64,000 nucleotides of DNA from Thermoleophilaceae bacterium (GTDB lineage Bacteria; Actinomycetota; Thermoleophilia; Solirubrobacterales; Thermoleophilaceae): contig DASUWY010000061.1 of the NCBI GenBank assembly GCA_036378175.1, positions 1-64,000 of the forward strand, in the 5' to 3' direction. Positions 1,030-22,464 of this stretch are shown here, in pieces. The notes beneath the pieces were generated by a model. It was given only the letters and a program-made list of their open reading frames with translations. It searched no databases and was not told the origin of the DNA. A program made the position numbers and the translations under genes. How positions within the stretch are numbered: position 1 is the first letter of the stretch; every line of letters begins with the position of its first letter.

Positions 1030-1392
1030 CTACCCCTCAAGCACTTTCTTCGCGATAGCGAAAGCGCTGTTGGCGCGCGGTACTCCCGCGTATATCGCGG
1101 TGTGCAGGATCACCTCGGCGATCTCGTCTGGCGTGAGGCCGTTCGTTATCGCCGCCTTCACGTGCATCCCGATCTCGTTCTCCGCGCCGAGGCTCACCAG
1201 GGCGGCGAGGGTGATGCAGCTTCTGGTCCTGCGGTCGAGGCCGGGGCGGGACCAGATCTCGCCCCACGCGTAGCGGGTGATGAAGTCCTGGAAGGGCTCG
1301 GTGAAGGGGGTGGTGTTCTCCACGGCGCGGTCCACGTGCTCGTCGCCGAGCACCTCGCGGCGCACCTTCATTCCCTGCTCGCGGTCGCTCAT
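1030..1392 (-). CDS. pcaC: 4-carboxymuconolactone decarboxylase (PcaC)
   Basis: Small cytoplasmic enzyme of 120 aa that decarboxylates gamma-carboxymuconolactone to beta-ketoadipate enol-lactone in the protocatechuate branch. Family features are the central TRSCITLAALVSLG segment and the following EIGMHVKAAITNG with its catalytic His, then HTAIYAGVPRA; length matches single-domain PcaC. It is the last gene of the pca operon and overlaps pcaD by 4 bases (ATGA), implying translational coupling. Many actinobacteria fuse PcaD and PcaC into one protein (PcaL); here they are separate but in the same order. Confidence 0.93.
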   Translation of the reverse strand: MSDREQGMKVRREVLGDEHVDRAVENTTPFTEPFQDFITRYAWGEIWSRPGLDRRTRSCITLAALVSLGAENEIGMHVKAAITNGLTPDEIAEVILHTAIYAGVPRANSAFAIAKKVLEG

Positions 1393-2168
1393 TCTTGGTC
1401 CTTCGCCTCCAGGTGATCGAGGATGAGGTCGGTGACGACGTCCGCGCGCTCGACATTGGCGAGGTGCGCCGCGGGATCGAGCACCTCGAAGCGGGCGCCC
1501 GGGATGGCCTCCGCGATCAGCCTGCCGTGCTGCTCCGGCGGGGTGGACGGGTCCTGTGCTCCAGAGATGACAAGCGTGGGCGCCCCGATACGCGGGAGGT
1601 CATTGCGGAGGTCGAGCCGCTCGAGCACCCCGCACAGCTCCGCGTAGCCGTCGTCCGGCTGCGACTCGAGCATTGCCTTGAAGCGCGCCACCACGCCCGG
1701 CTGGCTCTCGCGGAAATCGTCGGTGAACCAGCGCTCCATCGTCGCTTCCGCCAGCCCCGCGGTGCCGTGCTCGCGAACAGCCGCCGCGCGCTCCACCCAC
1801 ATGCTCGGGTCGCCGAAGCGGGGACTCGTGCAGATGAGGGCGAGCCGGTCGATCCGCTCCGGCGCGTTCGCGGCGAGCCACATGCCGGTGGCGCCGCCGA
1901 GCGACACTCCGCAGAAGTGCGCGCGCTCGATGCCGTTCAGGTCGAGCAGGTGGAGCACGTCGTGCCCGAGATCGGCGAGCTCATACGGGCCCGGCGGGAC
2001 AGACGACGCACCGTGGCCGCGCTGGTCGTAGCGCAGCACGCGGAAGCCCACGGACAGTGCTGGCACCTGTGTGGCCCACATTTCCATCGACGTGCCGAGC
2101 GAGTTCGACAGCACCACCACAGGGGCATCGTGAGGGCCGTTGATGCGGTGGTTCAGCTCGACACTCAT
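1389..2168 (-). CDS. pcaD: 3-oxoadipate enol-lactonase (PcaD)
   Basis: Alpha/beta hydrolase of 259 aa that opens beta-ketoadipate enol-lactone to beta-ketoadipate. The nucleophile elbow is GVSLGG (Ser89); the acid is the Asp of SGAQDPSTP and the base the His of DPAAHLANVE near the C-terminus; SNSLGTS and YDQRGHG supply the oxyanion-hole side. It starts inside the end of pcaB (4-base ATGA overlap) and overlaps pcaC the same way. Length and context leave little doubt about the role. Confidence 0.93.
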   Translation of the reverse strand: MSVELNHRINGPHDAPVVVLSNSLGTSMEMWATQVPALSVGFRVLRYDQRGHGASSVPPGPYELADLGHDVLHLLDLNGIERAHFCGVSLGGATGMWLAANAPERIDRLALICTSPRFGDPSMWVERAAAVREHGTAGLAEATMERWFTDDFRESQPGVVARFKAMLESQPDDGYAELCGVLERLDLRNDLPRIGAPTLVISGAQDPSTPPEQHGRLIAEAIPGARFEVLDPAAHLANVERADVVTDLILDHLEAKDQE

Positions 2169-3394
2169 GACCGGTGTGCTTCCAGTGCGCGGTCTATCAG
2201 GTCGGAAGCTGCGCCCAGATACGACTCCGGCGCGAGCACGGCGTCGTCTAGCTCCGGGAGGGCGTCACGTAGCTCCACGCCGTCGTCCATCACCTTCCGG
2301 GCGGCGTGCTCGACGAGCTCCTGCGCCTTCGCGCGGCCGAGCGACGGCGTGAGAGCTGTGACCACGCCCTCGGTCATCAGCAGACCGCCGGTGACGTCCA
2401 GGTTCGCGCGCATGCGCTCGGTGTCCACCTCGAGTCCTTCGAGCAGCTCGCGCAGCGTCGCGGCGGCGGAGCCGGTCAGGCGCAGCAGGTCGGACAGCGT
2501 CTCCGATTCGGCCTGCCATGCGCCGGCCGCGCGTTCGTGCTCCTGCGCCATCGACGCCAGCATGGTCGCCACCAGGCCCGGCACTCGAGCCGCGCACGCG
2601 CGCACGGCAACAGCGCCAACGGGGTTGCGCTTGTGCGGCAGCGTGGACGAGCCGCCGCGACCGGCGGCCCCAGCCTCGGCCACCTCCCCCACCTCGGTCT
2701 GCGCGAGCAGCTCGATGTCCAGCGCGATCTTGCCCATCACGCCCGCGGCCGCGCCGAGCGCGCACGCCAGCCGCGCCGGCTGGGTGCGGATGGTGTGCCA
2801 CGGAAGCGTCGGCTCGGCCAGCTCGAGGGCGCGTGCCACCTCGGCCACCGCTCTCAGGCCGTCGTCACCAAGCGCCGCCAGCGTTCCCACCGCGCCGCCG
2901 AGCTGCACAGTCAGGCCCGCCCGTACACCGGCAAGCGCTCCCCGCACCTCGTCGAGGCCGCTGAGCCAGCCCGCCGCCCTGAGCCCGAACGTCACCGGCG
3001 CGGCCTGCTGCAGGAGGGTGCGGCCGGCCATTGGCGCGTGGCGATAGCGCTCCGCCAGGACCGCGCAACCGTCGGCGGCGCCGCCCAGATCCTCGAGTAG
3101 CGGTCCAAGCGCGCGCTTGGACACGAGCATCGCCGCACTGTCCACCACGTCCTGGCTCGTGGCGCCGCGGTGCACGTGGGCGGCGGCGTCCTCCGGCAGC
3201 CTTGCCCGCAGCTGCTTCAGCAGACCCGGCACCGGGGTGCCGTAATCGGCTGTGGAGATGCCGAGGTCCTCGAGGTCGAAGCGGTCCGCCACGCACGCGG
3301 CGGCGATCGCATCTGCCGCGCCAGAAGGCGCCACGGCGCGCGCCAGCGCCGCCTCGAAGTCGAGCATCGCCTGCAGCCAGGCGCGGTCGTCCAC
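2165..3394 (-). CDS. pcaB: 3-carboxy-cis,cis-muconate cycloisomerase (PcaB)
   Basis: Member of the fumarase/aspartase superfamily converting 3-carboxymuconate to 4-carboxymuconolactone. The superfamily signature GGSSTLPHKRNPVG and the HRGATSQDVVDSA motif are clear. The first conventional start is GTG 3394 (409 aa), but it falls inside conserved sequence: the upstream codons of the same frame read LFSRGRVAAEV, as in homologues. A CTG at 3448 with AAGGGG nine bases before it would give 427 aa and a 20-base overlap with pcaG. The true start is therefore probably CTG 3448 rather than the coordinate given. Confidence 0.92.
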   Translation of the reverse strand: MDDRAWLQAMLDFEAALARAVAPSGAADAIAAACVADRFDLEDLGISTADYGTPVPGLLKQLRARLPEDAAAHVHRGATSQDVVDSAAMLVSKRALGPLLEDLGGAADGCAVLAERYRHAPMAGRTLLQQAAPVTFGLRAAGWLSGLDEVRGALAGVRAGLTVQLGGAVGTLAALGDDGLRAVAEVARALELAEPTLPWHTIRTQPARLACALGAAAGVMGKIALDIELLAQTEVGEVAEAGAAGRGGSSTLPHKRNPVGAVAVRACAARVPGLVATMLASMAQEHERAAGAWQAESETLSDLLRLTGSAAATLRELLEGLEVDTERMRANLDVTGGLLMTEGVVTALTPSLGRAKAQELVEHAARKVMDDGVELRDALPELDDAVLAPESYLGAASDLIDRALEAHRS

Positions 3395-3428
3395 TTCCGC
3401 GGCTACACGGCCGCGCGAGAAGAGACCG

Positions 3429-3995
3429 CTATAAATCGAAGAAGACAGTTTCGTTTTCCCCTTGGAGGTGGATGTCGAAGCTGTAGCCGTCGTCGGACTT
3501 GATGGCCATCAGCGTCTCAGACGCGGCGGTCGCCGGGAGTGACGACAGCACCGGGTCCGCCGCATTTGCGGCTTCCTCCTCGGGGAAATAGATGCGGGTG
3601 ACGAGCCGCTTGAGCATGCCGCGCGCCATCACGGTCACGTCGATGTGCGGCGCCTGCGTCGTGCCGTTCTGTCCGGGAACCCTGCCCGGTTTGATCGTGT
3701 AGATCCCGTAGCGGCCGTCATCATCCGTGCCGCTGCGGCCCAGCCCGCGGAAGACGCCCCAGTCCACCGCGCCGCGCGGGTCGTCCGGGTGGGCGAAGCG
3801 GCCGTCGCGGTCCGCCTGCCACGTCTCCACCACCGCATCCGGGATGGGGGCGCCGTTGCCGTCGGTCACCCGGCCGCGGATCCAGAAGGCGCCGTCCGTG
3901 CCCTGCGGCACCACGTCGGCACCGTCGTCCCAGGTGAGGCCGATCGCGAAATACGGCCCGACCGTCTGCGAGGGAGTCACTCCGAGCTTGCTCAT
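3429..3995 (-). CDS. pcaG: Protocatechuate 3,4-dioxygenase alpha subunit (PcaG)
   Basis: Alpha subunit (188 aa) of the intradiol dioxygenase that cleaves protocatechuate to 3-carboxy-cis,cis-muconate; it forms the heteromer with PcaH and lacks the iron ligands. Family marks are TPSQTVGPYFAIGL at the N-terminus, the DGNGAPIPDAVVETWQAD turn, and RIYFPEE near residue 145. ATG 3995 overlaps the pcaH stop by 4 bases (ATGA). The last 20 bases probably also encode the start of pcaB. Confidence 0.95.
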   Translation of the reverse strand: MSKLGVTPSQTVGPYFAIGLTWDDGADVVPQGTDGAFWIRGRVTDGNGAPIPDAVVETWQADRDGRFAHPDDPRGAVDWGVFRGLGRSGTDDDGRYGIYTIKPGRVPGQNGTTQAPHIDVTVMARGMLKRLVTRIYFPEEEAANAADPVLSSLPATAASETLMAIKSDDGYSFDIHLQGENETVFFDL

Positions 3996-4729
3996 GCGTG
4001 GGGCTCCTCGAACACCACGGAGTCGGGTCCGCGCAGCACGATGTCCCACTTGTAGCCGAGCTGCCAGTGGTCCTCAGTGGTGTCCCAGTCGAAGCGGGAG
4101 ACCATCCGCTCGCGCACCTTCGGGTCGGGCACCGAGTTGAAGATCGGGTCCTCGGAGAAGAGCGGATCGTCCGGGAAGTACATCTGCGTGACGAGCCGCT
4201 GAGTGAACGCATGGCCGAACAGCGAGAAGTGGATGTGGGCCGGCCGCCAGGCGTTGTGGTGGTTCTTCCACGGATACGCGCCCGGCTTGATCGTGACGAA
4301 GCGGTAGTTGCCCTCGGAGTCCGTGAAGCAGCGGCCCACACCGTCGAAGTTCGGGTCGAGCGGCGCCGGCCAGTCGTCGACGTGGTGGCGGTAGCGGCCG
4401 GACGCGTTGGCCTGCCAGCACTCCACGAGCGTGTTCGGCACCGGGCGGCCATCTGAGTCGAGCACGCGGCCCGACACCTGGATGCGCTGCCCGATCGGCA
4501 TCTCCTCGTGCTGGCGCGTGAGGTCGTAGTCGAGCGGGCCGAGGCGGCTCTCGCCCAGCACAGGGCCCGTGACCTCCGTGAGCATGTGAGGCAGGAGCAC
4601 GAGCGGGTTCTTCGGGTGGCGGAACTCGGTGCTCCGGTAGCCGGGGTAGTCGAGCGGCGGATCGATGTCCGCGTTCTCGCGCGTGTATGAGGGGAGAACG
4701 ATCCCGCTCTCTGTCTGCTGTTCGGTCAT
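3992..4729 (-). CDS. pcaH: Protocatechuate 3,4-dioxygenase beta subunit (PcaH)
   Basis: Iron-bearing beta subunit (245 aa) of protocatechuate 3,4-dioxygenase. The Tyr/Tyr/His/His Fe(III) ligand set is recognisable: Tyr in ASGRYRHH, Tyr in KPGAYPW, and both His of RPAHIHFSLFG. The N-terminal half carries the LVECWQAN motif shared with PcaG. The gene begins 4 bases inside the end of pcaF and ends overlapping pcaG, so the two subunits are made in a coupled way. Confidence 0.96.
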   Translation of the reverse strand: MTEQQTESGIVLPSYTRENADIDPPLDYPGYRSTEFRHPKNPLVLLPHMLTEVTGPVLGESRLGPLDYDLTRQHEEMPIGQRIQVSGRVLDSDGRPVPNTLVECWQANASGRYRHHVDDWPAPLDPNFDGVGRCFTDSEGNYRFVTIKPGAYPWKNHHNAWRPAHIHFSLFGHAFTQRLVTQMYFPDDPLFSEDPIFNSVPDPKVRERMVSRFDWDTTEDHWQLGYKWDIVLRGPDSVVFEEPHA

Positions 4730-5913
4730 GCCGCCTCCAGTACGACTGCGAGTCCCTGTCCGACGCCTATGCAGATCGCCGCGAGGCCGTAGCCTCCGCC
4801 GCGCCTCTTCAGCTCATGGGCCAGCGAGCCGAGGATGCGCGCGCCCGAGCAGCCGAGCGGATGCCCGATGGCGATGGCGCCGCCGTTCACGTTCACGATC
4901 TCGGGGTCCAGCTCCCGCCACTCGGCGAGGCACGCGAGCGACTGCGCGGCGAAGGCCTCGTTCAGCTCCACCACGTCGATGTCGCCCCAGCCGATCCCTG
5001 CCTTCTCGAGCGCCTTGTTCGCCGCCTCCACCGGGCCGATGCCGAACAGGTGCGGCTCGACGCCGTGCGACGCGCGCGACACGATCCGTGCGAGCGGGTC
5101 GCGCCCAAGTTTCTCGGCGCCCTTCTCGTCGCCGATGAAGAGCGCGGCCGCGCCGTCGTTGAGCGGCGAGGAGTTGCCGGCCGTCACGGTGCCGTCCTTG
5201 CGGAAGACGGGCCTGAGCTTGCCGAGCTTCTCGAGCGATGTGTCTGCGCGGATGCCCTCGTCGCGCTCGAGCTCCACGCCGTCCGGAGGCGGGACGATCT
5301 CGTCCTCGTACACGCCGGCGTCCCACGCGGCGGCGGCGCGCTGATGGCTCTTCAGCGCGAACTCGTCCTGCTCCTCGCGCGAGATCTCGAAGCGCTCCGC
5401 CAGGATCTCGGCGCCCTCGCCGAGAGCCACCGTCCACTGCTCTGGCATCTCCGGGTTGACCATGCGCCAGCCGAGCGTGGTGGAGTGAAGCGTCTCGTGA
5501 CCCCGCGGAAGCGGCTTCTCGGGCTTGAGCAGAACCCACGGGGCGCGGCTCATCGACTCCACGCCGCCGGCGATCAGCAGTGAGCTGTCGCCAACGGACA
5601 CCGCGCGGCTCGCGTCGATCGCCGCCTCGAGGCCCGAGCCGCAGAGGCGGTTGACCGTCGCCCCCGGCACGCTCGTGGGCAGGCCGGCGAGGAGCACGGC
5701 CATGCGCGCGACGTCGCGGTTGTCCTCCCCCGCCTGGTTCGCGTCCCCCATGTACACGTCCTCGATGTCCGCGGGATCGAGCTTGGGGCTGCGCTCCACG
5801 AGCTTCTTCACCACGTGCGCGGCGAGGTCGTCCGGGCGCACGCCGCTGAGCGCTCCGCCGTGGCGGCCGATGGGCGTGCGAATCGCATCGAGCACGTAGC
5901 TGCCGTTAACCAT
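4726..5913 (-). CDS. pcaF: Beta-ketoadipyl-CoA thiolase (PcaF)
   Basis: Thiolase of 395 aa that splits beta-ketoadipyl-CoA into succinyl-CoA and acetyl-CoA, the last pathway step. Nucleophilic Cys91 is in NRLCGSGLEA; NEAFAAQSLA, the GHPLGCSGAR His and the C-terminal AAICIGVGQG Cys complete the active site. I chose ATG 5913, which overlaps the pcaJ stop by 8 bases; a TTG two codons earlier is also possible. A general acetyl-CoA acyltransferase role cannot be excluded by sequence, but the operon makes PcaF the natural call. Confidence 0.92.
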   Translation of the reverse strand: MVNGSYVLDAIRTPIGRHGGALSGVRPDDLAAHVVKKLVERSPKLDPADIEDVYMGDANQAGEDNRDVARMAVLLAGLPTSVPGATVNRLCGSGLEAAIDASRAVSVGDSSLLIAGGVESMSRAPWVLLKPEKPLPRGHETLHSTTLGWRMVNPEMPEQWTVALGEGAEILAERFEISREEQDEFALKSHQRAAAAWDAGVYEDEIVPPPDGVELERDEGIRADTSLEKLGKLRPVFRKDGTVTAGNSSPLNDGAAALFIGDEKGAEKLGRDPLARIVSRASHGVEPHLFGIGPVEAANKALEKAGIGWGDIDVVELNEAFAAQSLACLAEWRELDPEIVNVNGGAIAIGHPLGCSGARILGSLAHELKRRGGGYGLAAICIGVGQGLAVVLEAA

Positions 5914-6673
5914 GAGCAACCTTCTGCGTCTCGAGCAGGTCGCGCAGGGCGCTGAGCTCCTCTTCGCTCGGCGGCTCCGTGGTGATGAGCTCGTCGGCCA
6001 CCTTCAGGTCCCAGCCGGTGGCCTCGTGCGCCTGCTCGATGTCCACGCCCTCGTGGAGCTGCGTCATGGTCAGCTCGCAGGTCTCCGGGTCCGGTTCGAG
6101 CACGCCCAGGTCCGTGATCACCTTGACCGGTCCTCTGCCGCGCAGCCCGAGCTTCTCGCGCGAGCCCGCACCGCTGCCGTACCCGACCGAGGTGACGAAG
6201 TCCACCTTCTCGCGGAACGTGCGCGGGTTCTGGCGCACGATCACGATCACCTCGCCGCACAGCGCCGCGATCTCGGGCGCGCCGCCCGCGCCGGGCAGCC
6301 GCACCTTCGGCTTGTCGTAGTCGCCGCCGATCACGGTGGTGTTGATGTTGGCGTAGCGGTCGATCTGCGCGGCGCCGAGGAAGCCCACCTCGATGCGTCC
6401 GGGCTGCAGCCAGTAGTTGAAGATCTCGGCCACGCTCACCACCGAGTCGGCCGTGACGGCCAGCTCGCCGTCGCCGATCGAGAGCGGCAGGGTGCTCGGC
6501 TTCGACCCGATGCAACCGGACTCGTAGATCAGGACCATGTTCGGCGCGTGCGTGCGCCGGGCGAGGTTGGCCGCGGTCGACGGCAGGCCGATGCCGACGA
6601 AGAGGGTCACGCCGTCCCGCAGCGCGCGGGCGGCCGCGACTGTCATGAAGTCATCAGGACTGAACTGCCCCAT
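5906..6673 (-). CDS. pcaJ: 3-oxoadipate CoA-transferase subunit B (PcaJ)
   Basis: Beta subunit (255 aa) of the class I CoA-transferase that moves CoA from succinyl-CoA to beta-ketoadipate. The catalytic Glu lies in LIYESGCIG near residue 52, in the place of the ENG-type motif of the family, and a conserved Gly-rich loop GYGSGAGSRE follows. The 20-base overlap with pcaI suggests translational coupling of the two subunits. Confidence 0.92.
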   Translation of the reverse strand: MGQFSPDDFMTVAAARALRDGVTLFVGIGLPSTAANLARRTHAPNMVLIYESGCIGSKPSTLPLSIGDGELAVTADSVVSVAEIFNYWLQPGRIEVGFLGAAQIDRYANINTTVIGGDYDKPKVRLPGAGGAPEIAALCGEVIVIVRQNPRTFREKVDFVTSVGYGSGAGSREKLGLRGRGPVKVITDLGVLEPDPETCELTMTQLHEGVDIEQAHEATGWDLKVADELITTEPPSEEELSALRDLLETQKVAHG

Positions 6674-7469
6674 AGATCTCTTCCTCTAGCCACGCTTCGA
6701 ACTTCTCTCTGTCGCGCGCGATCGGGTCCCAGGCACGGTAGGCCTCGTTGTCGCGGTCGTAGTAGCCCTGCGCGTATGACGGGTGAGCGCCACGTGGCGC
6801 CACGGCCACGCAGGTAACGGTCCAATGTGGCAGCACGATCGCGCCCGGCAGGGGCTCGAGCTCGTCAACGATCTCCTCGACCGTCACGAGCGAGCGCGTG
6901 GAGGCCAGCACGGTCTCCTTCTGCACGCCCACGATTCCCCAGAGCTGGACGTTGCCGTCGCGGTCCGCGCGCTGGGCGTGGATCACGCCGACGTCCGGAT
7001 TCACGGCGGACACCGCAGTGAGCTTCTCGCCGGTGAACGGGCACTCGATTGGCTTGATCGACGGCGTGCGCGCCGGTAGGTCGGTGCCGGTGTAGCCGCG
7101 CATCACGGCGAACGGCAGGTTCGACGCGCCGGCGGCGAAGCGGTTCGCCATGCCCGCGTGGCTGTGCTCCTCCAGCTCGAGCGGCGCCGGCCAGTCGTTC
7201 TCCACCGCGTCGCGGAAGCGGTGAAGCGAACCGACGCCGGGGTTGCCGCCCCACGAGAACACCAGCTTGCGTACGCAGCCGGCGCCGATCAGCTGGTCGA
7301 AGATCACGTCGGGCGTGAGGCGGATCACGGTGAGGTCGCGGCGGCGCTGCCGGATCACCTCGTGCGCGGCCGCGAACGGGATCAGGTGGGTGAAGCCCTC
7401 GAACGCCACCGAGTCGCCATCGTGAATCACGTTCGCGACCGCATCCTGGAGTGAGAGCAGTTCGGCCAT
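6654..7469 (-). CDS. pcaI: 3-oxoadipate CoA-transferase subunit A (PcaI)
   Basis: Alpha subunit (271 aa) of beta-ketoadipate:succinyl-CoA CoA-transferase and first gene of the pca operon. Family features include DGDSVAFEGFTHLIP at the N-terminus and FSWGGNPGVGSLHRF. The start is ATG 7469. The short leader upstream carries an operator-like dyad, so regulation of the whole operon is likely exerted here. Confidence 0.92.
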   Translation of the reverse strand: MAELLSLQDAVANVIHDGDSVAFEGFTHLIPFAAAHEVIRQRRRDLTVIRLTPDVIFDQLIGAGCVRKLVFSWGGNPGVGSLHRFRDAVENDWPAPLELEEHSHAGMANRFAAGASNLPFAVMRGYTGTDLPARTPSIKPIECPFTGEKLTAVSAVNPDVGVIHAQRADRDGNVQLWGIVGVQKETVLASTRSLVTVEEIVDELEPLPGAIVLPHWTVTCVAVAPRGAHPSYAQGYYDRDNEAYRAWDPIARDREKFEAWLEEEIYGAVQS

Positions 7470-8508: not shown

Positions 8509-9309
8509 ATGACTGAGGAACGGCCTCGCAACTCCGACTTCGTGCAGTCCCTCGAGCGGGGCCTGGCGGTGATCCGCGCCTTCGACGCCGAGCATCGCGA
8601 GCTCGGGCTGAGCGACGTGGCGCGCGCCACCGGGCTCACTCGCGCGGCGGCGCGCCGCTTCCTGCTCACGCTCGTGAAGCTGGGCTACGTGCACTTCGCG
8701 GACGGCCGCTTCTCGCTCCGCCCTCGCGTGCTCGACCTCGGCTACGCGTACCTCTCGAGCCTGAGCCTCCCGGAGGTGGCGCAGCCGCACATGGAGGCGC
8801 TCGTGGCGAAGGTGAACGAGTCCTCGTCGGTCTCGGTGCTGGACGACACCGACGTGGTCTACGTGGTGCGGGTGCCCACGCGCCGCATCATGAGCATCAC
8901 GCTCGCGGTGGGCACACGGCTGCCGGCCTACGCCACGTCGATGGGCCGCGTGCTGCTTGCCGGGCTCGCTGACGAGGCACTTGACGAGCGGTTGTCGCGC
9001 ATCGAGGTGCGCCCGCTCACGTCGCATACGGTGAAGAACAGCGCCGCGCTGCGCGAGGCGCTGATGTCCACCCGGAAGACCGGCTACGCGATGGTCGATC
9101 AGGAGCTCGAGGAGGGGCTGCGCTCGGCCGCGGTGCCGATCCGAGGCGCTTCAGGTGACGTGACGGCGGCGCTGAACGTGTCCGTACACGCCAGCCGCGC
9201 GTCGATGTCGGCGCTGCGGCGGGAGTTCCTGCCGCATGCTCTCGAGGCCGCCGCCGCGATCGAAGAGGACCTGCGCGGCACCGCTCACGCCACTCTGGCC
9301 AGGGCGTAG
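8509..9309 (+). CDS. pcaR: IclR-family Pca regulon regulator (PcaR/PcaU type)
   Basis: Regulator of 266 aa with an N-terminal IclR winged helix (FVQSLERGLAVIRAF, then SDVARATGLTRAAARRFLLT) and a C-terminal effector domain (YATSMGRVLLAGL, GYAMVDQELEEGLRSAAVPI). These phrases are characteristic of the PcaR/PcaU/PobR subgroup that responds to beta-ketoadipate, protocatechuate or 4-hydroxybenzoate. Start ATG 8509 has GGAGGGG just upstream; the upstream extension of the frame is not conserved. It probably controls the nearby pca operon and itself through the shared CGGTTCG half-sites. PobR specificity (control of pobA) is an alternative. Confidence 0.82.
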   Translation: MTEERPRNSDFVQSLERGLAVIRAFDAEHRELGLSDVARATGLTRAAARRFLLTLVKLGYVHFADGRFSLRPRVLDLGYAYLSSLSLPEVAQPHMEALVAKVNESSSVSVLDDTDVVYVVRVPTRRIMSITLAVGTRLPAYATSMGRVLLAGLADEALDERLSRIEVRPLTSHTVKNSAALREALMSTRKTGYAMVDQELEEGLRSAAVPIRGASGDVTAALNVSVHASRASMSALRREFLPHALEAAAAIEEDLRGTAHATLARA

Positions 9310-12624: not shown

Positions 12625-13233
12625 ATGGCGTGGAGCATCGAGGGACGCTATTTCGAGAACTGCTCGTGCGAGGTGGTGTGTCCGTGCACCGCTTCCCTCG
12701 CGCTGGGGGCCGACAACGACTACTGCCGGGCCGCGCTCGTGTTCCACATCGACTCGGGTGAGGTCGACGGCGTGGACGTGAGCGGCCTCACCGTGGCGGC
12801 GGTCGCCGAGTCCGGCAAGTACATGCACGAGGGCAACTGGCGGCTGGGCGTGCTGATGGACGATGCCGCGTCCGACGAGCAGGCGGAGAAGCTGGGCGCC
12901 GTGTTCAGCGGACAGCTCGGAGGTCCCATGGAGGCGCTCGGTCCGCTGGTGAGCGAGCCGCTGGGGGTGGAGCGGGTGCCGCTCGAGTTCTCCTCGGAGG
13001 GCGGCCACCACAGGCTCACCGTCGGGGACAGGGGGCAGCTCGAGGTGGACGACGTGGTGTCGTTCGGCTCGGAGACCGGCCAGGCGGCGCAGCTCGCGAA
13101 CATCTTCCACCCGGCCGGCTCGACCCTCACGGTGGGCAAGGCGAGCGACGCGTCCGGACTCAGTGTGTTCGGCGTGGACGCGGGCGGCGGCGGGAAGTCG
13201 GGCTTCTCCGCTCCCTTCGCCTGGTCGGGCTAG
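12625..13233 (+). CDS. DUF1326 family protein (first copy)
   Basis: Cytoplasmic protein of 202 aa beginning with the hallmark of DUF1326, GRYFENCSCEVVCPC: an N-terminal Cys cluster CxCxxxCPC that suggests metal or thiol chemistry. The biochemical role of the family is not established as far as I know. GAGGAGAAGG precedes ATG 12625. It is followed after 5 bases by a DUF2182 membrane protein and then a second DUF1326 gene, so the three form one operon, controlled probably by the divergent MarR. Confidence 0.85.
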   Translation: MAWSIEGRYFENCSCEVVCPCTASLALGADNDYCRAALVFHIDSGEVDGVDVSGLTVAAVAESGKYMHEGNWRLGVLMDDAASDEQAEKLGAVFSGQLGGPMEALGPLVSEPLGVERVPLEFSSEGGHHRLTVGDRGQLEVDDVVSFGSETGQAAQLANIFHPAGSTLTVGKASDASGLSVFGVDAGGGGKSGFSAPFAWSG

Positions 13234-13238
13234 CGGAG

Positions 13239-15377: not shown

Positions 15378-16145
15378 ATGCGACCAATGGACCGCGTAGC
15401 GAACAAAATCGCCCTCGTCACGGGCGGCGCGCAGGGCCTCGGCCGTGCCATTGCGGAGCTGCTCGCGCGCGAGGGCGCGCACGTCGTGATCAGCGACATC
15501 CAGGAGGAGCTGGGCGCCTCGGTGGCACAGCAGATCGGCAACGCTTCCTTCCTCCAGCACGATGTGGCGAGAGAGGACGAGTGGCAGCGCGTGATCGCCG
15601 AGGTGCTGTCGGCGCGCGGCGCGCTCCACATCCTCGTGAACAACGCCGGGATCGCGCTTCAGAAGAACGTGGTGGATACGACGCTCGAGGAGTGGCGCCA
15701 CCTCCAGTCGATCAACCTCGACGGCGTGTTCCTGGGCGTGAAGCACGGGATTCCGGCGATCGCCCGATCCGGCGGCGGCTCGATCGTGAACATGTCCTCG
15801 ATGGAGGGCATCATCGCCCACCCGGAGATGGCGGCCTACAACGCGAGCAAGGGCGGCGTGCGGCTGCTCACGAAATCCGCGGCCTTGTATTGCGGCAGGC
15901 AGCGCAACGGTGTGCGGGTGAACTCGGTGCATCCGGCCTTCGCCTGGGGGCCGCTGCTCGAGGAGTATCTCGACGCGCAGCCCGACCGGGAGAAGGCGCT
16001 CGCGGAGCTGCAGGACGCCCACCCGATCGGCAATCTCGGCGACCCGGAGGACGTGGCCTACGGCGTGCTGTACCTCGCCTCCGACGAGTCCAAGTGGGTG
16101 ACGGGCACAGAGCTCGTGCTGGATGGAGGCTGGACGGCGGCTTAG
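15378..16145 (+). CDS. Short-chain dehydrogenase/reductase upstream of pobA
   Basis: Classical SDR of 255 aa: TGGAQGLGRA cofactor loop, NNAG, catalytic Ser in NMSSMEG, YNASK catalytic Tyr/Lys, and the C-terminal GTELVLDGGWTA. The residues resemble cyclopentanol / 3-alpha(beta)-hydroxysteroid dehydrogenase-like enzymes, so an alcohol or cyclic ketone substrate is plausible. ATG 15387 (MDRVANK) is an alternative start. It runs directly into pobA with a 10-base gap, suggesting a shared transcript and a role in funnelling an aromatic or alicyclic substrate. Confidence 0.8.
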   Translation: MRPMDRVANKIALVTGGAQGLGRAIAELLAREGAHVVISDIQEELGASVAQQIGNASFLQHDVAREDEWQRVIAEVLSARGALHILVNNAGIALQKNVVDTTLEEWRHLQSINLDGVFLGVKHGIPAIARSGGGSIVNMSSMEGIIAHPEMAAYNASKGGVRLLTKSAALYCGRQRNGVRVNSVHPAFAWGPLLEEYLDAQPDREKALAELQDAHPIGNLGDPEDVAYGVLYLASDESKWVTGTELVLDGGWTAA

Positions 16146-16155
16146 GATGGCGGCG

Positions 16156-17328
16156 ATGCGGACTCAGGTGGGAATCGTCGGCGCCGGGCCGGCCGGGCTC
16201 GTGCTCGCACAGCTCCTCGACCGGGCGGGGATCGAGTCCGTGATCCTCGAGGCCCGCGACCGTGAGTACGTCACGCAGCGTGTGCGCGCAGGGGTGCTGG
16301 AGCAGGGCACCGCCGACCTGCTCGACTCGATGGGCCTCGGCGAGCGCATGCACCGCGAGGGCATCGTGCATCACGGGATCTACCTGCGCTTCCGGCGCCA
16401 GAGCCATCACATCCCGATGAGCGACCTCACCGGCGGGCGCTCGATCTGGATCTACGGGCAGCAGGAGGTGGTGAAGGACCTGATCGACGCGCGGCTCGCG
16501 GCCGGCCAGCAGCTCTACTTCGAGGCGTCGGACGTGAGCGTGCACGACTTCGAGTCCGACGAGCCGCGGATCGAGTTCGCGCACGATGGCGAGCGGCACG
16601 AGCTGCGCTGCGACGTGATCGCCGGCTGCGACGGCTTCCATGGCGTCTGCCGGCCGGCTATCGAGAAGGTGCTCACCATCCACAACCACGAGTACCCCTT
16701 CGGCTGGCTCGGGATCCTGGCGCAGGTGGCCCCCTCCACGGACGAGCTCATCTACACGAACCACGAGCGCGGCTTCGCGCTGCACTCGCTCCGCTCACCC
16801 GAGCTCTCGCGCCTGTACATCCAGTGCGATCCGCACGACGACATCGCGCGCTGGTCGGATGAGGCGATCTGGGAGGAGATGCACCGGCGCTTCGAGACCG
16901 ACGACGGCTGGGAGCTGAAGGAAGGCCCGATCGTCGACAAGGGCATCACGCCGATGCGCAGCTTCGTGGCCGAGCCGATGCAGCACGGCCGCCTCTACCT
17001 GGCCGGCGACGCCGCGCACATCGTTCCGCCCACCGGCGCGAAGGGACTCAACCTCGCGGTGCACGACGTGAAGGTCCTTGCGGAGGCACTCACCAAGTGG
17101 TTCGGCGACGGAGACGGCTCGCTGCTCGAGGCCTACTCCGGCACGTGCCTGCGGCGGGTCTGGCGCGTGCAGCACTTCTCCTGGTGGATGACCTCCATGC
17201 TCCACCTGATCGGCGATGCCGACGACTTCGAGCATCGCCTCCAGCTCGCGCAGCTCGACTACGTGACGTCGTCCGAGGCCGCGGCCAAGACGCTCGCCGA
17301 GAACTACGTGGGGCTCGAAAAGGTCTGA
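16156..17328 (+). CDS. pobA: 4-hydroxybenzoate 3-monooxygenase (PobA)
   Basis: FAD monooxygenase of 390 aa that hydroxylates 4-hydroxybenzoate to protocatechuate, the substrate of PcaGH. The match with known PobA runs end to end: MRTQVGIVGAGPAG, RVRAGVLEQG, CDVIAGCDGFHG, YPFGWLGILA, MRSFVAEPMQHGRLYLAG, DAAHIVPPTGAKGLNLA and FSWWMTSMLH. I chose ATG 16156 (AGGA 6 bases upstream; family N-terminus) over ATG 16147. The 3' end overlaps the convergent LysR gene by 25 bases. Confidence 0.95.
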   Translation: MRTQVGIVGAGPAGLVLAQLLDRAGIESVILEARDREYVTQRVRAGVLEQGTADLLDSMGLGERMHREGIVHHGIYLRFRRQSHHIPMSDLTGGRSIWIYGQQEVVKDLIDARLAAGQQLYFEASDVSVHDFESDEPRIEFAHDGERHELRCDVIAGCDGFHGVCRPAIEKVLTIHNHEYPFGWLGILAQVAPSTDELIYTNHERGFALHSLRSPELSRLYIQCDPHDDIARWSDEAIWEEMHRRFETDDGWELKEGPIVDKGITPMRSFVAEPMQHGRLYLAGDAAHIVPPTGAKGLNLAVHDVKVLAEALTKWFGDGDGSLLEAYSGTCLRRVWRVQHFSWWMTSMLHLIGDADDFEHRLQLAQLDYVTSSEAAAKTLAENYVGLEKV

Positions 17329-18209
17329 CCCGCCACCTCGGCGGCAAGCTCGCGGAGCCGCACGACGGTGGGGAGCGGATCATCGCGCCGCCAGGCGATT
17401 GCGATGCCCATCGTGGGCTCGGGCTGCGCGAAGCGACGGTACACGGCGCCCGGGATCCGCAGGCTCTTCGAGCGCTCGAGCATGATGAAGGAGATGCCCG
17501 CGCCCTCGGCCACGGCCGAGACGATGCGCTCCTCCTCCGGCTCCACGCGGTCAATCGGCGGCCACGGCGGCTCGCCCATCACCTCGCGGCGCACCTCGCG
17601 CCACGCCCCGGGCCCGTGCTCCTCGGGCCACCACACGAGCGGCAGCCCGCGCAGGTCGCGCGTGCGCACGCGGTTGCGCCTCGCGAGCGGATGCCCCTTC
17701 GGTAGCACGCACACCAGCGGCTCGCGTCCGAGCACGAGCTCCTCGAGCCCGTCGACCTCGAGCGGCGGCCGCACGAAGCCCACGTCGATGTCCCCCGCGA
17801 GAAGCTGCTCCATGTGGAGCATCGTGTTGCCGACCGTGAGGTGGAGGTGAACGTCCGGATAGCGCGCGCGGTACTCCCCCACGATCGCGCCCGCAACTCC
17901 GCCGGTGAGCGAGCGGGTGAGGCTGAGCCTCAGGCGGCCGCGCTCACCGCTGCCGGTGGCACGCGCGACGGCCGCCGCCTCGTCCGCCCGGCTGAGCAGC
18001 TCGCGCGCCTCGGGAAGCAGCGCCTCACCGGCGGCCGTGAGCGTGGCGCCGCGACGGTTGCGGTGGAAGAGCTGCACGCCAAGCTCCGCCTCGAGCGTGC
18101 GGATCTGCTGGCTCACGCTCGGCTGCGCGAGGTGCAGCCGCTCGGCCGCGCGGCGGAAGTGCAGCTCCTCGGCCACGGCCACGAACGAGGAGAGCTGGCG
18201 CAGCTCCAT
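17304..18209 (-). CDS. LysR-family transcriptional regulator
   Basis: Regulator of 301 aa: N-terminal LysR helix-turn-helix (ELRQLSSFVAVAEELHFRR, then LHLAQPSVSQQIRTLEAELG) and a periplasmic-binding-fold effector domain. It starts at ATG 18209 and is divergent from the PEP-mobile-domain operon, with a CCTTTC-N6-GAAAGG box between, the usual arrangement for a LysR protein and its target. It is convergent with pobA, so control of pobA is less likely. Confidence 0.87.
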   Translation of the reverse strand: MELRQLSSFVAVAEELHFRRAAERLHLAQPSVSQQIRTLEAELGVQLFHRNRRGATLTAAGEALLPEARELLSRADEAAAVARATGSGERGRLRLSLTRSLTGGVAGAIVGEYRARYPDVHLHLTVGNTMLHMEQLLAGDIDVGFVRPPLEVDGLEELVLGREPLVCVLPKGHPLARRNRVRTRDLRGLPLVWWPEEHGPGAWREVRREVMGEPPWPPIDRVEPEEERIVSAVAEGAGISFIMLERSKSLRIPGAVYRRFAQPEPTMGIAIAWRRDDPLPTVVRLRELAAEVAGQTFSSPT

Positions 18210-18228
18210 AGCGCCATGATAGGCGCCG

Positions 18229-18284
18229 CCTTTCACAGAAGAAAGGATTGGGACTTGAACTGAGCGCCGCGCGGCGCGTACCTT
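18229..18284 (+). promoter_or_regulatory. LysR box and promoter of the PEP-mobile-domain operon
   Basis: CCTTTC (18229-18234) and GAAAGG (18241-18246) form a perfect dyad, a typical LysR box. Downstream TTGAAC (18255-18260) and TACCTT (18279-18284) are spaced by 18 bases and could be the -35/-10 of the operon; the spacer holds the palindrome GCGCCGCGCGGCGC. The box sits just upstream of -35, as expected for activation. Confidence 0.5.
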
Positions 18285-18308
18285 CGGCTCTCAACGAGGA
18301 GGGTGGAG

Positions 18309-20141
18309 ATGGCAGATACCGAGGTGGCGGCCGCGCGCTTCCCAAGCCCGTTCGAGGTGGAGGAGCCCGCGGGCTGCGAGGGCTGGGAGTCGATGTTCCC
18401 GTACTACGCGCTGTTCAGCGAGGAGCGGCGCGCAAACGAGGAGCAGCGCGGGTGGTTCCGCGACGGCATGCACTTCCCCGAGCCGATGTTCCCGTTCGAC
18501 TTCGTCACCGCGGACTCGCCGTACATGTCGCTCGGCCAGGCGAACTCGCGCATCTTCCTCGTGCCACCCGCCCTCGGCATCGACCACCGCGTGCTGTACG
18601 GCTGGGTCTACATGAGCCCCAACGGCGTGGCCGACGACGCCGAGATCGGCCGCCGGGCGGAGGAGTTCCAGCAGCGCGCGGGCTACTACTTCCAGAACTG
18701 GGACGAGCTCTACGGGCGCTGGCAGGCGAAGGTCGAGGAGGCGATCCGGGAGATCGACACGCTCGAGGTGCCGGACCTGCCGCGCGAGGAGGAGCTCGCG
18801 GTGGTGACAGAGGGGCGCGGTCTCGGCTCAACCCACACCCTGCTCGTGGCCTACAACCGGCTGCTCGAGTCCGTCGACCGCATCTGGCAGTACCACTTCG
18901 AGTTCCTCAACCTCGGCTACGCGGCCTACCTCGCCTTCTACCAGCTGTGCAAGGAAGCGTTCCCGGACATCGCCGATCAGACGATCGCGCAGATGGTGTC
19001 CGGCATCGACGTGGTGCTGTTCCGGCCGGACGAGGAGCTCAAGCGGCTGGCGCGGACGGCGATCGGCATGGGGATCGCGGCCCACGTGAAGGCGGCGGCC
19101 GACGAGGACGCGCTGCGTGCGGCGCTATCTGGAAGCGCCGAAGGCCGCGACTGGCTCGCGGATTGGGACGGCACGAAGGTGCCCTGGTTCAACTACTCGA
19201 ACGGCAACGGCTTCTATCACCACCACCGTTCCTGGATCGACGACGCCGCGATCCCGCTCGGCGGCGTGCGCTCGTACATCGAGCGGCTCGAGGCGGGCGA
19301 GGACATCGCGCGGCCGCTCGAGGCGGTGTCTGCCGAGCGCGATCGCCTCGCGGCGGAACACCGCGACCTGCTCCCGGACGACGCCACGCGCGCCGCTTTC
19401 GATGAGAGCCTCGGCCTATCGCGCGTGGTCTTCCCGTACGTGGAGAGCCACAACTTCTACGTCGAGCACTGGTACCACACGCTGTTCTGGAACAAGGTGC
19501 GCGAGTTCGGCGACCTGTTGGTGCGCCATGGGTTCATCGCCGAGACCGACGACATCTTCTATCTCCAGCGGCACGAGATCTCGGACGCGCTCGTGGACCT
19601 GCGGCTGGCGTGGGCGGCCGGCTCCGAGGCACGCGGGCCCGGCTACTGGCCGCCGATCGTGGCCCGCCGAAAGGAGATCATGGAGGCGATGCGGCGCTGG
19701 TCTCCCCCGCCCGCGCTCGGCGCGGTGCCCGAGGCGATCACCGAGCCGATGACGATCATGCTTTGGGGGATCACGACCGAGCGGGTGCGAGAGTGGGCCG
19801 CGGGGCCTGGCACTGACGGCGCATCGCTCACCGGCTTCGCCGGTTCTCCGGGGGTGGTTGAAGGCGTCGCGCGCGTGATACGCGACGTGCGCGACGTCGG
19901 CAGCCTCGAGGAGGGCGAGATCCTGGTGGCGCCGGTGACCTCTCCGAGCTGGACTCCCGTGTTCGGCAAGGTGGCCGCCGCGGTGTCGGACATCGGCGGC
20001 ATCATGTCCCACGCCGCCATCGTCGCGCGCGAGTACGGGATGCCCGCCGTGGTGGGCACCGGCAACGCCACTGCGCGCATCTCCAACGGCGATCGGATCC
20101 GCGTGGACGGCGACGCCGGCGTCGTCACGATCCTGCGGTGA
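18309..20141 (+). CDS. PEP-synthase mobile-domain protein, phenylphosphate synthase subunit 1-like
   Basis: Protein of 610 aa. The C-terminal 100 residues are the phosphohistidine swivel domain of PEP-utilising enzymes: TSPSWTPVFGKVAAAVSDIG then GGIMSHAAIVAREYGMPAVV, with the phosphorylatable His at about residue 568. The N-terminal 490 residues are not an ATP-grasp. This layout (about 70 kDa, His near 569) is that of subunit 1 of phenylphosphate synthase, which transfers phosphate to a phenol; its ATP-grasp partner subunit is not in this window. AGGAGGG precedes ATG 18309. It is the first gene of a coupled trio with an FAD oxidoreductase and an SDR. Phenol-type phosphorylation is inference. 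Confidence 0.75.
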   Translation: MADTEVAAARFPSPFEVEEPAGCEGWESMFPYYALFSEERRANEEQRGWFRDGMHFPEPMFPFDFVTADSPYMSLGQANSRIFLVPPALGIDHRVLYGWVYMSPNGVADDAEIGRRAEEFQQRAGYYFQNWDELYGRWQAKVEEAIREIDTLEVPDLPREEELAVVTEGRGLGSTHTLLVAYNRLLESVDRIWQYHFEFLNLGYAAYLAFYQLCKEAFPDIADQTIAQMVSGIDVVLFRPDEELKRLARTAIGMGIAAHVKAAADEDALRAALSGSAEGRDWLADWDGTKVPWFNYSNGNGFYHHHRSWIDDAAIPLGGVRSYIERLEAGEDIARPLEAVSAERDRLAAEHRDLLPDDATRAAFDESLGLSRVVFPYVESHNFYVEHWYHTLFWNKVREFGDLLVRHGFIAETDDIFYLQRHEISDALVDLRLAWAAGSEARGPGYWPPIVARRKEIMEAMRRWSPPPALGAVPEAITEPMTIMLWGITTERVREWAAGPGTDGASLTGFAGSPGVVEGVARVIRDVRDVGSLEEGEILVAPVTSPSWTPVFGKVAAAVSDIGGIMSHAAIVAREYGMPAVVGTGNATARISNGDRIRVDGDAGVVTILR

Positions 20142-21781
20142 GCGACGCGCGCTTCGACGCGGTGGTCTGCGGAGGCGGCCACCACAGCACGATCGTCGCG
20201 TGCTACCTGGCGCGCGCCGGGATGAGCGTGGGCGTGTTCGAGCGGAGCGTTCACTTCGGCGGCGGCGCGCAGACCAGCGAGGGGCCGGCGCCCGGCTTCC
20301 TCATGAATCACTGCAGCCACTGGACGCGCTTCTACGGCCACCCCGCCTACCGCGACTTCGACCTCGCGGCCGAGGGCCTCCGCTACGTCTTCCCCGAGCA
20401 GAACGAGGGGATGATCTTCGACGACGGCTCGTCCTTCATCGGCTACTCGGCGGCAACGGTGGTGGACGCCGCCACCGGCCGGGTGGAGCGCTCCGACGCG
20501 AACGTGCAGCGTACCTACGAGCAGATCGGGCGCTTCTCGGCACGCGACGCGGAGACGTACCTCGTGCTGCTCGAGGCCTACGAGAAGCACTGGAAGCAGG
20601 CGTTTCGCCGCCACCGCTTCAGCCCGCCGCGGCCGTGGGGCACGCCGGATCCGCTCGAGGAGCTGCTCGACGTGCCCGGCTCGCGGATCGAGCCGGTGCA
20701 CCAGTTCATGACGCTCCGCCAGCTCGCGTTCGACTTCTTCGAGAGCGTGGAGATGCGCATCCTCTTCATGCGCGCGGCCACCACCTCCACCGGCTGCTAT
20801 CCGGACGACGTGCCGGGCTTGCAGGGGCTTATCCACGTTCTGCCCTTGACCCTTTCGTTCGAGCCGGCCGCGATTGCGGTGGGCGGCAGCCAGGCGATCA
20901 CGGACGCGCTGATGTCAGCGGGCCGTCGGATGGGCGTGGAGTACGTGAATCACGCCGACATCGACCGCATCGCGGTGGACGGCCGGCGGGCTTCCGGCGT
21001 CGTGCTCGCGGATGGCTCGAGCGTCGCGGCCGATGTGGTGATCAGCGGGCTGGGTCTCCCCCAGACCGTTCTGCGTCTGCTGCGGGATCTGCCCGTGGAT
21101 CCGGAGTTCACGCGGCGGCTGCGGAACATCAACTACGACCGCGGCCAGCTGCTCTGGGCGAACCTCGCGCTGGGCGAGGCGCCGGCGTACAGCGCGGACG
21201 CCGGAAACCCGGGTGTCGGGGAGCAGCCGCGTCTCTACTGGGGGCCGAAGGACCTCGACTACCTGACGCTGCGCTACCAGCCCGAGATCTTCATGAACGG
21301 GTTCGCGAGCCAGCCGTACGTGCTCTGCTCGGTGGACAGCCTGTGGGACGGCACGCGCGCTCCCGGCGGCAGCCACATCGTGGGCGTGGAGGAATTCACG
21401 GCGCCGCGGCGCCTTTTCAGCGACGAGCGCTGGAAGGAGATCAGGGGCCGCTTCATCGCGAACCTGCTCCACGAGTGGTCGCACTACGCGCCGAACATGA
21501 CGTGCGACAACGTGATCGCGTCGCGCGTGTACACACCCGCTGACATCGAGCGGGAGCGCCCGGACATGGCCGAGGGCGGATACTCGGCCGGCGCGACCAT
21601 CGCCTCGCAGCTCGGCCGCTTCCGCCCCGTGGCCGGGATCGGCGGCTACAAGCTGCTGCTCGACAACCTCTACAACTGCTCGTCCAATCTGCACTCGGGG
21701 CCGGGCATCGGCCGCGGCTCGAGCTGGAACTGCTTCCAGGAGATCGCTAGGGACCTGGCGCTCGAAGGCATCGCGGCGTGA
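20138..21781 (+). CDS. Phytoene-dehydrogenase-like FAD oxidoreductase
   Basis: FAD-dependent oxidoreductase of 547 aa of the CrtI/phytoene-desaturase-like (COG1233) group. The dinucleotide-binding N-terminus reads VVCGGGHHSTIVACYLARAG with an acidic end (VFERS); the C-terminus has the family's GPGIGRGSSWN. GTG 20138 overlaps the preceding stop (GTGA). No carotenoid genes are nearby, so the substrate is probably not a carotene; in this context it may dehydrogenate an alicyclic or phosphorylated intermediate. That role is inferred from the operon. Confidence 0.8.
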   Translation: MSDARFDAVVCGGGHHSTIVACYLARAGMSVGVFERSVHFGGGAQTSEGPAPGFLMNHCSHWTRFYGHPAYRDFDLAAEGLRYVFPEQNEGMIFDDGSSFIGYSAATVVDAATGRVERSDANVQRTYEQIGRFSARDAETYLVLLEAYEKHWKQAFRRHRFSPPRPWGTPDPLEELLDVPGSRIEPVHQFMTLRQLAFDFFESVEMRILFMRAATTSTGCYPDDVPGLQGLIHVLPLTLSFEPAAIAVGGSQAITDALMSAGRRMGVEYVNHADIDRIAVDGRRASGVVLADGSSVAADVVISGLGLPQTVLRLLRDLPVDPEFTRRLRNINYDRGQLLWANLALGEAPAYSADAGNPGVGEQPRLYWGPKDLDYLTLRYQPEIFMNGFASQPYVLCSVDSLWDGTRAPGGSHIVGVEEFTAPRRLFSDERWKEIRGRFIANLLHEWSHYAPNMTCDNVIASRVYTPADIERERPDMAEGGYSAGATIASQLGRFRPVAGIGGYKLLLDNLYNCSSNLHSGPGIGRGSSWNCFQEIARDLALEGIAA

Positions 21782-22464
21782 AGCGAGTGCTGATCACGGG
21801 CGCGGCCCGCGGGTTGGGGCTCGAGCTCGCTAGGCATTTGCTCCGGTCCGGCTTCCGGGTTGCGGGTGCCGATCTGCTCGACGCGGACGTGGAGTTCCCC
21901 CTCGTCCGCGCTGACGTGACTGCTCCCGACGGCCTTACCGAAGCAATAACGGCGGAGCTCGGAGGGCTTGATGCACTGGTCAACAACGCGGCCGTTGTGG
22001 ACCTGGCCCGCCGGCCGTTCTGGGAGATCGAACCGGAGGAATGGGACCGCGTGATGTCGGTGAACGTGAAGGGCGCCTGGCTCGTAACGCGCGCCGTGCT
22101 GCCGCTGCTCCGCGAATCCGGCGCCGCTTCGATCGTGAACGTGTCCTCGGAAACCGCGTACTCGGGCTCCCCGGGGCTCGCGCACTACGTTGCGTCGAAG
22201 GGAGCCGTGATCTCCCTCACCCGTGTGATGGCTCGCGAGCTGGGTCCCGAGGGGATGAGGGTGAACGCCATCGCCCCCGGCTACATCCCCACCGAGGCGT
22301 CAACCACGATGGCGCCCGACGGCTACGACGCGAGCCGCACTCCACTCGGCCGCGTGGGCACACCGAACGACCTCTTCGGCACCGTGGAGTTCCTCATCTC
22401 AGACGCAAGCGCCTTCGTCACCGGCCAGACGCTGCTGGTGAACGGCGGCCGCACGATGAACTAA
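21778..22464 (+). CDS. Short-chain dehydrogenase, third gene of PEP-mobile operon
   Basis: SDR of 228 aa with all key positions: ITGAARGLGLELA, NNAAV, NVSSETAYSG (Ser), YVASK (Tyr/Lys), and the C-terminal GQTLLVNGGRTMN. GTG 21778 overlaps the flavoprotein stop (GTGA), so the three proteins are made together. A hairpin directly behind the stop ends the operon. It likely acts on the product of the flavoprotein; cofactor preference is not evident. Confidence 0.85.
   Translation: MKRVLITGAARGLGLELARHLLRSGFRVAGADLLDADVEFPLVRADVTAPDGLTEAITAELGGLDALVNNAAVVDLARRPFWEIEPEEWDRVMSVNVKGAWLVTRAVLPLLRESGAASIVNVSSETAYSGSPGLAHYVASKGAVISLTRVMARELGPEGMRVNAIAPGYIPTEASTTMAPDGYDASRTPLGRVGTPNDLFGTVEFLISDASAFVTGQTLLVNGGRTMN

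Follow-up and report, generated by a model that had tools for sequence, protein, structure and literature searches.

A LysR-linked gene cassette of a Thermoleophilaceae bacterium with a proposed role in the catabolism of phosphorylated 4-alkylphenols

We studied a stretch of 64,000 nucleotides from a Thermoleophilaceae bacterium (hereafter the window; contig C61 of assembly G000, which totals 4.29 Mb in 89 contigs and is 95% complete), in which three co-directional genes, here called A, B and C, follow each other with a GTGA overlap at both junctions, as a first-pass annotation had described, next to a divergent LysR-type regulator gene. We interpret the four genes as a cassette for the catabolism of a 4-alkylphenol that is processed as a phosphate ester, a model to which we give a probability of roughly 0.5. 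The narrower proposal, that A, B and C would oxidise the side chain of a phosphorylated 4-alkylphenol, is a little better than an even bet, and a substrate here that is ethylphenol-like and feeds the Hpe pathway is put forward tentatively. The cassette comprises the following features (the prefix L denotes fetched stretches and G denotes genomes):

18309..20141, + strand: A, acceptor (swivel) subunit of a two-component aryl dikinase of the PpsA/CreH/HpeH family, predicted from NF006153, identities, motif and tree.
20138..21781, + strand: B, CrtI/CrtO-like flavin adenine dinucleotide (FAD) oxidoreductase, proposed benzylic side-chain oxidase of aryl phosphates, from weak CrtO/CrtI scores and EtfBA neighbours in relatives.
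21778..22464, + strand: C, short-chain dehydrogenase/reductase (SDR) of the CreG type, proposed hydroxybenzyl or sec-alcohol dehydrogenase of aryl phosphates, from its identity to CreG.
17304..18209, - strand: divergent LysR regulator (PF03466/PF00126), member of the cassette, position kept in L008.
18210..18308, no strand: divergent promoter region between LysR and A, with a conserved block and palindrome AGGCGCCGCCT, from alignment with L008.

The start of A is an ATG with AGGAGG upstream, and an in-frame GTG lies at 18303. Pfam recognised in A solely the phosphoenolpyruvate (PEP)-utilizers mobile domain (residues 533-604), while NCBIfam PRK08296 (NF006153) spanned its full length with 870.9 bits. 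Over that full length A was 49% identical to PpsA, 49% to HpeH and 48% to CreH. The likeness extended beyond the mobile domain, as the first-pass annotation had supposed: residues 1-490 were 45-52% identical to PpsA, CreH and HpeH-type proteins, with alignment scores of 1156-1402 against about 10 for shuffles. The references came from an Azoarcus pps-ppc cluster (PpsA), a Rhodococcus cluster ordered P450-grasp-PEP-SDR-ferredoxin-ferredoxin reductase-HD-aldehyde dehydrogenase (CreH) and a Rhizobium leguminosarum cluster ordered kinase-biotin carboxylase-HAD (HpeH), and their names derive from gene order and annotation, not from assays of those proteins. The phosphohistidine anticipated near residue 568 is His568 in the swivel motif SDIGGIMSH, equivalent to residue 569 of Azoarcus PpsA. 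Phenol kinases carry a T/SxxGGxxxH swivel with Met, not Thr, two positions before the His (PMC12167813), and the Met at that position in A fits these published enzymes and not PEP synthase. The full-length homology and the swivel motif together make A almost certainly the acceptor subunit of an aryl dikinase. In the tree, A of the window and of its nearest relative locus, L008, were sister to the Rhodococcus/Actinomadura HpeH group (96/93), and this pair lay inside the HPE clade (100/99; ultrafast bootstrap 100), not in the CreH clade. Of the earlier comparison with phenylphosphate synthase subunit 1, the family homology therefore stands, and identity with phenylphosphate synthase proper is ruled out by the grouping with HpeH. 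A drug-inactivating role like that of rifampin phosphotransferase, suggested by the common swivel and substrate-domain fold (PMC12167813) and by PDB matches to 5HV1/5FBS in the C-terminal part of A, is scarcely credible in view of the N-terminal identity to phenol kinases, the aromatic-catabolic setting and the absence of a fused ATP-grasp domain from A.

No ATP-grasp partner for A occurs within the window, in agreement with the first-pass annotation, and the genome search that it proposed found one on contig C73. This single separate ATP-grasp (PPDK_N) protein of the genome is encoded at C73:24333-25372, directly behind A2, a paralogue of A, and matched the HpeI crystal structure 9GOJ with 266 bits. 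Downstream lie genes for a biotin carrier, biotin carboxylase, carboxyltransferase and HAD phosphatase in the R. leguminosarum Hpe-type order, and the identities of the C73 operon (L088) to the R. leguminosarum set were 48% for HpeH, 42% for HpeI, 39% for HpeB, 50% for HpeC, 49% for HpeA and 30% for HpeD. By order and identity these genes are a complete predicted Hpe-type operon; upstream of it (L088:11305-14774) are an amino-acid permease gene and a glutamine-synthetase-like gene. The other PPDK_N/mobile-domain protein of the genome, on C47, has an open frame of 885 amino acids and is a fused PEP-synthase-like protein. Since the assembly contains one separate ATP-grasp gene, HpeI of C73 would serve A as well. 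Among 80 relatives of A, 76 carried an ATP-grasp gene within the fetched stretch, in most cases as a direct neighbour, and four (L033, L037, L071 and L082) had none, some of these stretches stopping at or near A. Two acceptor subunits with one ATP-grasp gene were present at L039:10001-15765, L055:10001-16754 and L024:6911-11818, as well as in G000 (A and A2), an arrangement that suggests one phosphate donor for two substrate-specific acceptors.

Family matches agreed with the description of B as CrtI-like and C as an SDR. B scored 96 bits with CrtO (cut-off 1000) and 48.9 bits with the CrtI family (cut-off 238), far below both, and C was 47% identical to CreG as compared with 28-35% to unrelated SDRs. 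CrtI, CrtO and CrtP share with B the FAD fold family; they abstract hydride from activated C-H bonds, and CrtP/CrtO oxidise methyl or methylene groups. That B is itself a carotenoid or isoprenoid desaturase or ketolase with chance neighbours would fit its top families, CrtO and CrtI, but its scores are 1/10 to 1/5 of the cut-offs, the operon lacks carotenoid genes and B recurs near a dikinase and a CreG-like SDR across phyla, which leaves this explanation highly improbable. Hardly better placed is an alicyclic route, in which B and C would aromatise cyclohexane carboxylate or a similar compound to 4-hydroxybenzoate in a Chc-like manner with A incidental. The neighbouring pobA and a match of SDR2 (see below) to ChcB1 of 204 bits (cut-off 400) speak for it, together with a weak ChcC1 match of B, but this last amounted to 24.6 bits against a cut-off of 1000, i.e., generic flavoprotein similarity; moreover, C resembles CreG and B accompanies dikinases in three phylum-level groups. 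Of the two intermediates envisaged by the first-pass annotation, the phosphorylated phenolic that is then dehydrogenated is retained and the alicyclic one is not. Plasmid-borne relatives of B (25-29% identity; Shinella, Rhizobium and others) were left out, the one inspected being located with coenzyme A-linked genes and no phenol kinases. The flavoprotein of anaerobic benzene degradation was also considered as a relative of B and is an unrelated protein of the VAO/PCMH type (PMC13416013).

A co-occurrence survey, also proposed in the first-pass annotation, linked the three genes. With a threshold of at least 48% identity, B orthologues were found in eight genomes, in frequencies of 2/232 in the order, 1/396 in the phylum sample (the window genome itself), 2/400 in Chloroflexota and 2/113 in the class of G239, further B genomes having been reached via A; B is rare. 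An SDR gene was present in the same cluster as B in all eight genomes, and all eight encoded an aryl dikinase, which in seven shared the contig with B. The exception, G1031, has its dikinase in a Pps-type cluster on another contig, together with PpcB, UbiX and an HD protein. Several B loci come from fragmented metagenome-assembled genomes (MAGs). The Chloroflexota loci L022, L033 and L043 have the order grasp-A-B-EtfB-EtfA-aldehyde dehydrogenase-(HD)-SDR, except that the contig of L033 begins at A and that L043 lacks HD and has one open reading frame between A and B. G650 has the divergent arrangement A-grasp-AOR-HD-B2-B-SDR, and G1031 has SDR-B-EtfB-EtfA-membrane FeS protein, EtfBA standing beside B in four of the eight orthologous loci. 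Among 1173 fetched proteins, the closest non-Cre relatives of CreG were the B-linked SDRs (that of G1031 excepted); the HD proteins of B loci were 34-38% identical to CreD, and the aldehyde dehydrogenases hardly closer to CreC than other aldehyde dehydrogenases. As judged from gene content, the Chloroflexota B loci are the Cre gene set in which B and electron transfer flavoprotein (ETF) take the place of the P450, ferredoxin and reductase. A search of the window gave no match for CreJ, CreE or CreF. Neighbouring ETF and AOR genes, together with the Ppc/UbiX genes, suggest that the chemistry of those organisms does not depend on oxygen. A further CrtI-like flavoprotein, B2 (27% identical to B), adjoins B or a B-like protein at L107:6702-8582, L101:4572-6565 and L129:8422-12814, where it is accompanied by a conserved 79-residue protein without Pfam match; the two flavoproteins possibly form a heterodimer. 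Near phenol-phosphate genes, L101:6907-9273 encodes a regulator that combines XylR_N and V4R with a PucR-type helix-turn-helix, which replaces the usual sigma-54 domain.

The B genomes differ in the genes that would complete the pathway. A CreD-like HD protein was present in five of the six from outside Solirubrobacterales (G232, G233, G239, G650 and G1031), G234 lacking a close homologue, and neither of the two Solirubrobacterales genomes, G000 and G235, had a match at an E value of 0.001. A close HpeA orthologue was found solely in G000 and G235 (73% identity between them), with matches of 30-35% in G650 and G239 and none in the other three tested. The kinase tree agreed with this complementary distribution: the Chloroflexota A proteins of B loci fell on the side of CreH and the Rieske-linked kinases (100/100), and a single clade of the five B-linked kinases was rejected (p-AU 3.6e-71). 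On these sequence grounds B and the CreG-like SDR are the constant core, and kinase and follow-up module covary.

The nearest relative locus (L008, of the Solirubrobacterales MAG G136/G235) keeps the whole block, with identities of 79% for LysR, 76% for A, 75% for B and 56% for C, and places LysR-A-B-C exactly between hpeH (A2) and hpeI of the hpe operon. In the window genome the block adjoins pobA, with the hpe operon located on a separate contig. The two placements argue that the block acts as a unit, linked to hpe and 4-hydroxybenzoate metabolism at both sites. Of the LysR box claimed ahead of the trio, the divergent LysR gene was confirmed, whereas no clear classical T-N11-A box was found in both intergenic regions (window, L008); an imperfect palindrome, AGGCG-C-CGCCT, is present instead between LysR and A, in the block conserved with L008.

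These results bear on two explanations close to the proposed one. A 4-cresol route might operate here too, with A phosphorylating, B oxidising the methyl group, C the alcohol and an aldehyde dehydrogenase such as that at 9372-10838 the aldehyde, and with HpeD or another phosphatase freeing 4-hydroxybenzoate for PobA. The gene-for-gene resemblance between the Cre cluster and the B loci of Chloroflexota, the CreG-like C, the aldehyde dehydrogenase gene in the window and the acceptance of cresol by HpeHI (PMC12167813) favour it, but the CreD-like HD protein is missing from G000 and G235, the aldehyde dehydrogenase is 7.5 kb distant and 35% identical to CreC, the level of any such enzyme, A is in the HpeH and not the CreH clade, and the L008 cassette lies inside an hpe operon; we consider this route unlikely in the present organism. 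Rather less likely still, A would be an additional hydroxyphenylethanone kinase, with B and C working either ahead of phosphorylation or on the acyl chain of a different lignin-derived ketone, so that phosphorylation and the B step would not be consecutive. The position of A within the HPE clade and the synteny of L008 with hpe genes agree with this, but in Chloroflexota B and C accompany a kinase from the opposite side of the tree, and CreD is mostly present there and HpeA absent; this argues that the constant companion of B is a phenol kinase and not a ketone pathway.

The genes around the cassette in the window are:

16147..17328, + strand: pobA, 4-hydroxybenzoate 3-monooxygenase (NF006091, 614.7 bits, cut-off 351), proposed sink for the pathway product.
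15387..16145, + strand: SDR2, adjoining pobA (SDR families), not in the L008 cassette.
1030..7469, - strand: pca genes (NCBIfam; pcaC, D, G and H above cut-off).
8509..9309, + strand: IclR regulator of the PcaR/PcaU/PobR type (TIGR02431, 329.8 bits, cut-off 284.75).

The pobA neighbour had been correctly named before. NCBIfam recovered pcaC, D, B, G, H and F and the PcaR/PobR-type regulator, with no match at the limit used for two open reading frames at 5906-7469. With pobA and pca in the window, the end of the route from 4-hydroxybenzoate through protocatechuate to beta-ketoadipate lies next door to the cassette. SDR2, by its absence from the L008 cassette, is placed outside the conserved unit. 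A DUF1326 gene followed by a gene for a PpoB2-type copper chaperone (12625-14045) is unrelated to the trio.

In the pathway that we propose, HpeI of C73 would transfer phosphate onto His568 of A, and A would phosphorylate the phenolic hydroxyl of a 4-alkylphenol. B would then abstract a hydride at the benzylic position of this ester, water addition would give the alcohol and the electrons would pass to ETF, a step standing in for the P450 system CreJEF of the Cre pathway; C would oxidise the resulting alcohol. For an ethyl side chain (4-ethylphenol or similar) the product would most likely be 4-phosphoacetophenone, which HpeCBA would carboxylate and HpeD dephosphorylate, ending in 4-hydroxybenzoate for PobA and pca. 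HpeCBA accepts phosphorylated substrates only, and pobA is induced by 4-hydroxyacetophenone (PMC9618137); HpeHI is promiscuous, with cresol turned over at about 1/4 of the 4-hydroxyacetophenone rate (PMC12167813). In the Chloroflexota and Bacillota-type relatives, the B-C core with an aldehyde dehydrogenase or AOR and a CreD-like HD phosphohydrolase would convert 4-cresol to 4-hydroxybenzoate without oxygen.

Several points weigh against this proposal. Its weakest step is the chemistry of B: hydride abstraction by p-cresol methylhydroxylase is aided by a quinone methide, which an aryl phosphate cannot form, so that B would need a benzylic cation or another course and its reaction would be demanding. 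The roles of B and C are predictions, and B could target another position or substrate; an AlphaFold2 model of B made with five orthologues reached a predicted local distance difference test score (pLDDT) of 45 and was set aside. The use of HpeI by A is deduced from a lone ATP-grasp gene in a 95%-complete assembly. No Etf gene adjoins the trio in the window or L008, the genome having one EtfA elsewhere, and in G1031 B and its SDR accompany EtfBA while the dikinase sits on another contig. Finally, the A-B adjacency is biased, since L008, L022, L033 and L043 were first gathered via A, and only L008, G234 and G650 were also recovered by searches with B.

Candidate novelty had been claimed for the pathway as a whole; our preferred reading is a variant of the established Cre and Hpe routes. 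The Hpe/Acv pathway of Rhodococcus rhodochrous GD02 comprises HpeHI, HpeCBA and HpeD (PMC9618137, PMC12167813). It resembles the present system in that the HpeH of this group is the sister of A, a full operon in Hpe order is present in the genome and the product would reach PobA and pca via 4-hydroxybenzoate, and it differs in that the described pathway has no counterpart of B or C and that A here is apart from its ATP-grasp partner. B and C are absent from the hpe-type cluster L112 and from the accessible part of the published gene list. The Cre pathway for 4-cresol of Corynebacterium glutamicum (CreHI, CreJEF, CreG, CreC and CreD; roles of creC-J in PMC7764795) likewise puts the kinase first, followed by side-chain oxidation, a CreG-type SDR and 4-hydroxybenzoate as product, but there B, with ETF in the anaerobe-type loci, is represented by P450, ferredoxin and reductase, CreD is missing from our genome and A falls outside the CreH clade. 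Phenylphosphate synthase and carboxylase (PpsAB and PpcABCD of Thauera, Azoarcus and Aromatoleum) share the two-component dikinase with a swivel His at about 568, and Ppc/UbiD/UbiX genes also occur in some B-carrying relatives; that system, however, carboxylates the ring, and no homologue of PpcA or PpcB (UbiD-like) was found in the window or the C73 stretch, the two regions searched. The p-ethylphenol pathway of A. aromaticum EbN1 (EmhCF, Hped1 and HacABC/Xcc; PMC10715001) has the same order of steps, i.e., benzylic hydroxylation, SDR dehydrogenation to the acetophenone and biotin-type carboxylation, and its carboxylase genes are clustered with hpeHI homologues too (PMC9618137, PMC10715001). 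The EbN1 methylenehydroxylase EmhCF works on the free phenol, whereas the CrtI-like B is proposed to act on the phosphate.

Other kinase-first loci appeared among the relatives of A. The largest class has the order ATP-grasp-A-Rieske oxygenase (L076:625-13189, L072, L047 and about 28 other loci of Actinobacteria/Acidimicrobiia), often with catechol 2,3-dioxygenase (L076: TIGR03211, 386 bits, cut-off 320), hydratase, aldolase and acetaldehyde dehydrogenase, and the kinases sampled formed one clade in the tree. This class likely represents an unreported aerobic route in which phenol would be phosphorylated to phenylphosphate and a Rieske dioxygenase would turn this into catechol, much as aniline is dioxygenated via gamma-glutamylanilide; nothing relevant to a phenylphosphate-Rieske route was found in the open-access literature. 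A three-subunit molybdenum hydroxylase recurs near A and grasp in L016, L027, L036, L039, L055, L075 and L111, another possible kinase-first route. The Anaerolineales locus L038:8895-20508 encodes grasp, A, a tandem-HD CreD-like protein and an SDR, with a putative HpaB-like flavin hydroxylase further downstream in place of B.

Kinase-first phenol catabolism is already known from Pps, Cre and Hpe, and the new element is B in place of a P450; a search of the open-access literature gave no precedent for a CrtI-like, ETF-associated flavoprotein in this position. That B represents a new class of enzyme, an oxygen-independent, ETF-linked flavoprotein of CrtI fold for the water-derived benzylic hydroxylation of aryl phosphates, is a speculative idea; if true, B would be the anaerobic counterpart of the Cre P450 step. 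For the attack on alkylphenols, Chloroflexota, Bacillota-type anaerobes and Solirubrobacterales would then have a kinase-first route as an alternative to p-cresol methylhydroxylase and fumarate addition. Why ATP is spent on phosphorylating a phenol before its breakdown is a question posed by the authors of the HpeHI work (PMC12167813), and, if B needs the phosphate ester, part of the answer would be that the phosphate is a handle for side-chain oxidation without P450 or oxygen. The same core would account for alkylphenol degradation by several uncultured anaerobes, and would offer a candidate biocatalyst for lignin-derived alkylphenols.

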